Shown here: positions 33,009-34,987 of the stretch, piece by piece
Position numbering within the stretch: position 1 is the first letter of the stretch
How the letters are laid out: the number at the start of each line of letters is the position of its first letter
NCBI GenBank assembly: GCA_947074145.1
Contig: CAMTOJ010000014.1
Location: forward strand, 1 to 64,000
Length of the DNA: 64,000 nt
Source of the DNA: an uncultured Bacteroidales bacterium
Lineage (GTDB): Bacteria; Bacteroidota; Bacteroidia; Bacteroidales; JAUNSR01
Direction: 5' to 3'
Notes under the pieces: generated by a model
What the model saw: only the letters and a program-made list of their open reading frames with translations
Told to the model about the DNA's origin: nothing
Databases searched by the model: none
Translations under genes and position numbers: made by a program

Positions 33009-33563
33009 ATGGAAATCAAACCGGGAAAATTCGTAGCTGTATCTTATACGCTATATGCAAATGAAAAAGGTGAAGAGCCGGAAATGGTTGAAGAAACACA
33101 ACCAGGTCAGCCACTTTCTTTTGTTTACGGTACAGGAATGATGCTTGAATCATTCGAAAAAGCTCTTGAGGGCTTGAAGGTAGGCGATAAATTTGATTTC
33201 GTGCTTGAAGCAAAAGACGCTTATGGCGATTATGAAGATGAAAATGTGATCGAATTACCTAAAAATATCTTTGAAGTTGACGGAAAATTTGATTCTGAAA
33301 TGGTTGTTGAAGGAGCTGTTTTACCAATGAGAGATTCTCAAGGTATGACTATCAACGGAACTGTTGAGAAAATCACAGATACAGGTGTAGTAATGGATTT
33401 CAACCATCCTATGGCAGGTAGCGATCTTCATTTCACAGGTGAAGTGCTTGAAGTGCGCGAACCGACAGAACAGGATATTCACGCATGTAATGGTGGATGC
33501 TCTTGTGATGATAAAGGTGATTGTGGTAGCGGTGACTGCGGATGCAGCGGCGGTTGTCATTAA
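33009..33563 (+). CDS. FKBP-type peptidyl-prolyl isomerase, SlyD-like, with Cys/His-rich tail
   Basis: GTGMMLESFEKALEGLKVGDKFDFVLEAKDAYGDYED; DFNHPMAGSDLHFTGEVLEVR; tail HACNGGCSCDDKGDCGSGDCGCSGGCH. Confidence 0.93.
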   Translation: MEIKPGKFVAVSYTLYANEKGEEPEMVEETQPGQPLSFVYGTGMMLESFEKALEGLKVGDKFDFVLEAKDAYGDYEDENVIELPKNIFEVDGKFDSEMVVEGAVLPMRDSQGMTINGTVEKITDTGVVMDFNHPMAGSDLHFTGEVLEVREPTEQDIHACNGGCSCDDKGDCGSGDCGCSGGCH

Positions 33564-33645: not shown

Positions 33646-33681
33646 TTTGTTTTATAATGATATTTTAAAAATATAAAGATG

Positions 33682-33779
33682 TTTTCGCTGCTCCTAGCTA
33701 ATTATCAGTTGATAAGACGCAAGTTATCAGTTGATAACTCGCAAGTTATCAGTTGATAATTAGCTAGGAGCAGCGAAAA
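33682..33779. repeat. 98-bp composite palindromic element: 20-bp perfect inverted repeats flanking three TTATCAGTTGATAA units at 22-bp period
   Basis: ttttcgctgctcctagctaa (33682-33701) and ttagctaggagcagcgaaaa (33760-33779) are exact reverse complements; units at 33702-33715, 33724-33737, 33746-33759. Confidence 0.95.
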
Positions 33780-33913
33780 TGCCGGTAAGAAAATCAAAAG
33801 TTGTAAAAGGTGAAACGATTTCATCCTCTATTTTACCATTTCGTTATATAGAGTTTAGAAACCCATGTTTTTATCGTAAATTTGTATCATAAATAAAAAA
33901 TATTAAAAAACTG

Positions 33914-34987
33914 ATGAACACTTTCGGAAATATATTCAGACTTACTTCATTCGGAGAATCTCATGGTGCTGCAGTAGGAGGCGTAATCGACGGAATGCCG
34001 GCCGGAGTTGAGATAGATATGGCTTTTATTCAAAGTGAATTGAACCGACGCCGTCCGGGACAATCAGCTGTGGTAACTCCGCGCAAAGAGAATGATGAAG
34101 TAGTATTTTTTTCAGGAATTTTCGAAGGTAAATCAACAGGAACACCGATCGGTTTTGCAGTATATAATGCCAATCAGCACTCTTCAGATTACGATAATAT
34201 TAAAGATGTTTATAGACCCTCGCATGCAGATTTTACTTATACAAGTAAATACGGAATAAGAGATCATCGTGGAGGAGGCAGGTCTTCGGCAAGAGAAACA
34301 ATTTCAAGATGCGTAGCCGGAGCTTTGGCAAAGTTGGCTTTAAAGGAAAAAAATATACTAATTCAGGGTTATACCTCGTCTGTGGGTAATATTTCCCTAA
34401 CCAAATCTTATCAAGAATATGATTTAGAGAAAGCAGAGCTTAACATTGTGAGATGCCCGGATTCGGAGATTGCTCAAAAGATGGAAAATCTGATTCTTGA
34501 TGTCAAAAAAGATGGCGACAGTATTGGCGGAACAGTAAGTTGCGTTATAAAAAATATGCCCGTTGGAATAGGTGAGCCTGTATTCGGGAAACTTCATGCC
34601 ACCCTTGCATCTGCAATGATGAGTATAAACGCAGCTAAAGCATTCGAATATGGAATGGGATTCGAAGGGTGTCATCTTCGAGGTTCTCAGGTTAAAGATA
34701 CATTTGTTAATATAGATGGAAAGATTGGTACACTTACTAATAACTCCGGCGGTATTCAGGGTGGAATCTCAAATGGAGAGGATATCTACTTTAAAGTTGG
34801 ATTTAAGCCTGTTGCCACATTGCTTATGGACCTTGATACTGTGGATAAAGATGGTAATAAAGCTGTACTTAAAGCTAAAGGTCGCCATGATCCTTGTGTT
34901 TTGCCTCGTGCAGTGCCTATTGTAGAAGCTATGGCGGCTATGGTTATACTTGATATGCTATTAATTAAGAAAACAAACTTGCTTTAA
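33914..34987 (+). CDS. aroC: Chorismate synthase
   Basis: [58 protein letters not shown]. Confidence 0.97.

Follow-up and report, generated by a model that had tools for sequence, protein, structure and literature searches.

What is the purpose of a 98-bp composite palindrome that lies between two genes and codes for nothing? The element occupies positions 33682-33779 of the window analysed here, a stretch of 64,000 nucleotides from the draft genome of an uncultured Bacteroidales bacterium (GCA_947074145.1, contig CAMTOJ010000014.1; hereafter genome G000, 3.71 Mb in 106 contigs). An earlier note, made from the sequence alone, described it as a 20-bp inverted terminal arm, three identical 14-bp near-palindromes at a 22-bp period and a perfect complementary arm, and offered three readings: a miniature mobile element or REP-type repeat, a site for a multimeric DNA-binding protein, or a cruciform or RNA hairpin. 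We sought to establish whether the structure is genuine, whether it is unique, and which of these readings is consistent with its distribution in this genome and its relatives. Our analyses confirm the observation, although the repeating unit required redefinition, and support its interpretation only in part.

The palindrome is genuine

The left arm TTTTCGCTGCTCCTAGCTAA (33682-33701) is the perfect reverse complement of the right arm (33760-33779), and three identical copies of TTATCAGTTGATAA begin at 33702, 33724 and 33746, separated by the spacers GACGCAAG and CTCGCAAG, both of which end in GCAAG as the note had stated. The element lies between a FKBP/SlyD-like gene with its terminator (33009-33563, plus strand, PF00254) and aroC, encoding chorismate synthase (33914-34987, plus strand, PF01264). 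It is not a product of chance; 42 of 49 possible pairs are complementary, making this the strongest palindrome of its length in the window (the next best centre has 32), and its fold as DNA has a z-score of -12.4. The note had proposed that proof of an assembly artefact would overturn the observation, but this is excluded because 15 further copies of the same subtype lie at unrelated places with unique flanks, and because the slyD-aroC adjacency exists without the element in two congeners, G001 and G002. In a third congener, G003, aroC has a different upstream gene and no array.

A dispersed family in a fixed frame

A BLASTN search of G000 with the element returned 16 copies of this subtype (A) in unrelated intergenic places, approximately 76–89% alike and all 98 bp long. 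A pattern search for two CTWGCWAG sites 22 bp apart revealed a second subtype (B, ACACCTTGCAAGGTGT) in the same frame, and a covariance model of subtype B, using sequence only, listed the remainder, giving 16 A and 44 B copies in addition to two weak hits (C6:9949 and C20:12108, where C denotes a contig of G000). One subtype B copy lies within the window itself, at 1442-1539 on the plus strand, and was missed by the earlier note.

The common design is an end cap with a T-tract, four 8-bp cores at columns 13-20, 35-42, 57-64 and 79-86, three 14-bp linkers, and an end cap with an A-tract, so that four sites lie at a pitch of 22 bp, or two helical turns. In the window's subtype A copy, the left end cap TTTTCGCTGCTC (33682-33693) has its T-tract flush with the edge of the frame and is followed by the core of site 1, CTAGCTAA (33694-33701; consensus CTWGCWAG), linker 1 (33702-33715), the core of site 2, GACGCAAG (33716-33723), linker 2 (33724-33737), the core of site 3, CTCGCAAG (33738-33745), linker 3 (33746-33759), the core of site 4, TTAGCTAG (33760-33767), and the right end cap GAGCAGCGAAAA (33768-33779). 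Each linker is TTATCAGTTGATAA, linker 1 comprising the inner half of site 1, two base pairs and the outer half of site 2. Hence, the repeating unit is a site centred on CTWGCWAG, extended in subtype A to TGATAACTWGCWAGTTATCA, and the 14-mer TTATCA-NN-TGATAA that the note had taken for the unit is the junction between two neighbouring sites. In subtype B two kinds of site alternate, strong ACACCTTGCAAGGTGT and weak AAACCTTGCAAGGTTT (strong-weak-strong-weak), and the element is therefore two tandem 44-bp units with a direction; global palindromy is special to subtype A. Subtype A also shares approximately 19 bp of mirror-image flanks on each side of the frame (consensus, read outward, nnCTTTtGGnAAAATnAAAA), which are only partly kept on the left of the window copy (33663-33681) and weak on its right (33780-33798).

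The 98-bp frame was not imposed by the search. A search with one single site (ACCTTGCAAGGT), which contains no information on pitch, found 14 further loci and all 14 were in the four-site frame, while in the covariance-model search, which allows gaps, the best hit at each locus spans exactly as many genome bases as model positions. No indel was seen in about 60 copies. Given how far the B copies have diverged, loss and gain of single bases would be expected in drifting DNA, and the spacing therefore appears to be under selection; this is the main argument against a decaying family of mobile elements.

Genomic context

None of 41 copies examined lies within an ORF of 90 aa or more; 21 are between tandem genes, 13 between divergent genes, 6 between convergent genes and 1 at a sequence edge. 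This near-random orientation is unlike operators or terminators. We considered whether the copies are operator arrays of a global transcription factor controlling the adjacent genes, since palindromic sites two turns apart are usual for cooperative operators and all examined copies are intergenic. However, distances to gene starts vary widely, the neighbours listed are varied, mostly housekeeping genes without a common theme, and the over-even spacing described below is not expected for a regulon, making this reading unlikely.

Two further repeats accompany some arrays. A second dispersed repeat of approximately 90 bp (TTAACGATTTT ... GTAAGTTGACTC) lies beside several arrays at varying distance (C24:26577, C73:5235, C55:3715, C37:22600 and C28:11388, with parts near C6:45468 and C1:14158), and a repeat of 40–110 bp (TGACTTTCnCTGAAATTAGTTTACATTTTTAAATTTAATCTCTAATACG) begins a few bases outside one end of five subtype B arrays (C7:4347, C13:48318, C20:46068, C23:22110 and C7:87883).

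The same geometry with a different sequence

To look for the design without reference to its sequence, we scanned 393 kb of G003 for palindromes at a fixed pitch over periods of 16–33 bp. The scan peaked at 22 bp, revealing eight arrays that are also four-site and 98 bp long, but whose core is YYGTRCRG and whose linkers carry an invariant ATAT in the eight aligned. A model of these arrays found at least 81 places in G003, again with equal genome and model spans for the best hits, and none in G000 or in the congeners G001, G002 and G004. Conversely, CTWGCWAG or CTTGCAAG pairs are frequent in G000 and absent from G003. Congener G004 showed no 22-bp array in 418 kb, so the system is not a core function of the genus.

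Among 393 genomes of the order, only G000 has many CTTGCAAG arrays; one other genus (g45) has two or three that look related, G251 and G324 carrying a few CTTGCAAG-type 22-bp pairs with symmetric arms (CTTGCAAGcGTGCnnnnnGCACCTTGCAGG), perhaps a third version. Arrays with CTTGCAAG cores, other arms and 2–8 units also occur in a horse-gut Bacteroidaceae MAG (H99, JAKSLM01), where 637 kb of directly scanned sequence contains 17 arrays, all at period 22 and none at 18–21 or 23–26. More distantly, loci of Rhodobacteraceae (for example L120, L124, L137, L196 and L226) carry arrays of perfect 18–20 bp palindromes centred on TTGCAA, with a pitch of mostly 22–23 bp, often four units, and arbitrary but exactly symmetric arms (covariation z up to 17), often squeezed 5–12 bp from the stop codons of convergent genes; any resemblance to the present family is possibly convergent.

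There is no sign that array positions are conserved between species. Between G000 and H99 only two array-adjacent genes are plausible orthologues, and between G000 and G003 four neighbours match above 45% identity, none of them on both sides of an array.

The conserved property is not a hairpin

The window copy folds very stably as DNA or RNA, but several observations speak against an RNA or cruciform element such as a small RNA, processing signal or terminator. The 40 tested copies of subtype B are not globally palindromic and display only weak covariation in their local arms, while the arrays of G003 show no pair covariation and less global pairing than shuffled partners; in G003 the half-sites instead vary independently, as for protein recognition. 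This pattern fits recognition by dimers better than a conserved hairpin. A search of Rfam returned no match at the gathering score, only sub-threshold eukaryotic miRNA models that are a hairpin artefact, and the copies start with T runs and end with A runs, the reverse of an intrinsic terminator. A whole-element hairpin as the conserved feature is rejected by subtype B and G003, and we consider an RNA or cruciform function very unlikely.

Copies are too evenly spaced for chance

On the 12 draft contigs of G000 with two or more firm copies, the 18 gaps between neighbours range from 12.1 to 77 kb, most being 18–32 kb. Only 1 gap is below 18 kb where 8.1 are expected if copies fall uniformly given the counts per contig (P of a minimum this large = 2.5e-4). 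H99 has no gap below 12 kb against 3.7 expected (P = 0.005), and short gaps are again too few in G003 (P = 0.001–0.008), although the last test is the weakest because the lengths of some contigs were approximated and the hit list ended at 150 scored candidates. The spacing is not uniform throughout, since long stretches lack copies (for example about 150 kb of C1), and all of these tests rest on draft contigs.

Even spacing is compatible with the principal rival explanation, a MITE-like non-autonomous element, in which a transposase supplied in trans would recognise the array and copy it into intergenic DNA, and transposition (target) immunity around each copy would keep insertions more than about 10 kb apart. 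Mu cis-immunity is strongest near 5 kb and fades between 5 and 25 kb, and immunity reaches further for Tn3 and Tn7 (PMC7350765), which matches the observed exclusion range. Furthermore, the arrays are multicopy, intergenic and absent from congeners, the slyD-aroC junction is empty in G001 and G002, and subtype A, with 16 similar copies sharing symmetric flanks, looks recently amplified, as after a burst. As for terminal inverted repeats, subtype A is symmetric to about 19 bp beyond the frame whereas subtype B is directional. Against this reading, there was no excess of matching flanks at offsets of -6 to +6 from the 98-bp edges, and so no target-site duplication; in the draft assembly the end pattern occurs only in 98-bp arrays and a few weak, unrelated matches (3 mismatches), with no longer parental element sharing the same ends; plasmid, phage and viral collections gave no related hit; and dead copies should gather indels, of which none was seen in the copies here or in the best G003 hits. 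Hence, a MITE-like origin remains a live possibility but seems the less likely. The REP alternative is rejected, since G000 (95% complete) contains no match to the REP-associated RAYT transposase (PF01797), and the arrays show no short hairpin preserved by compensatory changes of the kind that pairs as single-stranded DNA, with no covariation in G003 and only weak local dyads in subtype B.

A last alternative is that the copies are plasmid- or phage-type origin or partition arrays (iteron-like) held in the chromosome, for example as titration or incompatibility sites. Searches of plasmid and phage collections returned no match; scans of viral sequences gave only unrelated hits (loci L229 and L230, and L372, which shows only a partial match with no further sites in phase), and two other patterns found nothing. 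No Rep gene was noticed near the examined arrays and about 60 copies per genome is unlike an origin, so we regard this reading as very improbable.

Interpretation

Of the three readings in the earlier note, a site for a multimeric DNA-binding protein is the best supported, by the invariant four-site, 22-bp, 98-bp frame in about 60 copies, the same frame with a different core in a congener, and the half-sites that vary independently there. We propose that the element is a docking platform for an as yet unidentified oligomer, in which four dimers would bind four sites on the same face of the helix and bend or wrap approximately 98–136 bp, the T and A tracts marking the edges of the wrapped segment. 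Since such platforms sit in intergenic DNA at over-even intervals, their likely role would be at the scale of the chromosome (domain anchoring, boundary or organising sites) rather than regulation of one neighbouring gene. Our analysis demonstrates the copy number, the fixed frame, the intergenic location, the over-even spacing and the different core in the congener; the existence of the protein and its binding, the wrapping of DNA, and any chromosomal function are inferred, the chromosomal role from spacing and geometry alone. No binding protein was identified; the only lrp/asnC-like ORF found in the sequence searched is in H99, about 9 kb from the nearest array. We rate the docking explanation as about as likely as the other readings taken together.

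A bolder form of this hypothesis, which we hold only tentatively, is a chromosome-marking or chromosome-organising system in which four-dimer arrays of exactly 98 bp are placed every 20–30 kb along much of the chromosome, and in which the recognition sequence has been replaced wholesale between sister species (CTTGCAAG-type in one, CGTACG-type in the other) while the geometry stayed the same, implying a cognate DNA-wrapping protein that changes specificity quickly. If the arrays dock an organising protein, they provide a handle on how Bacteroidota chromosomes are folded, which is little known; if they are mobile, they would be a miniature element with built-in spacing control, and correspondingly less of a departure from what is known. 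Either way the prediction is sharp: one protein per species, switchable specificity and four dimers on 98 bp. The geometry-first approach, scanning for palindromes at a fixed pitch in any sequence, should find more such systems that sequence searches miss.

Comparison with known systems

No site family or repeat known to us combines an invariant four-site geometry, wholesale change of sequence between congeners and over-even chromosomal spacing, and literature searches for the motif or for evenly spaced repeats, covering open-access papers only, found nothing relevant. The closest precedent in manner of working is the Lrp/AsnC-type operator, where clusters of imperfect palindromes two or three helical turns apart are bound by octamers of four dimers that wrap approximately 100 bp (PMC2995911), RemA, an octameric ring, being a second (PMC8481266). 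The four sites at 22 bp conform to that arrangement, but the Lrp and RemA sites control particular promoters, whereas here about 60 near-uniform arrays are spread evenly over the chromosome, and no Lrp or RemA protein has been linked to them. Chromosome-wide site families, such as the Noc-binding NBS, SlmA sites, matS and parS, are likewise dispersed palindromic sites with a chromosome-level role, and the over-even spacing in G000, H99 and G003 gives the arrays the non-random chromosomal distribution of such a family, but they are single sites of about 13–20 bp conserved across related species, in contrast to four-site 98-bp arrays whose sequence is replaced between congeners. The BrickBuilt MITE of Porphyromonas gingivalis (PMC4596501) is also an intergenic element of Bacteroidales, with about 20 copies and tandem 23-nt units, but it has a variable repeat number and a leader and tail with IS-type terminal repeats, whereas the arrays here have exactly four palindromic sites at 22 bp and no IS-type ends. 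REP/BIME elements mobilised by RAYT transposases are dispersed intergenic palindromes in many copies, but this genome has no RAYT and its arrays keep a fixed four-site frame. Finally, plasmid iterons and the four iterons of the phage lambda origin have a pitch near two turns, and four units are common, but these occupy one locus beside an initiator gene rather than about 60 places on the chromosome.
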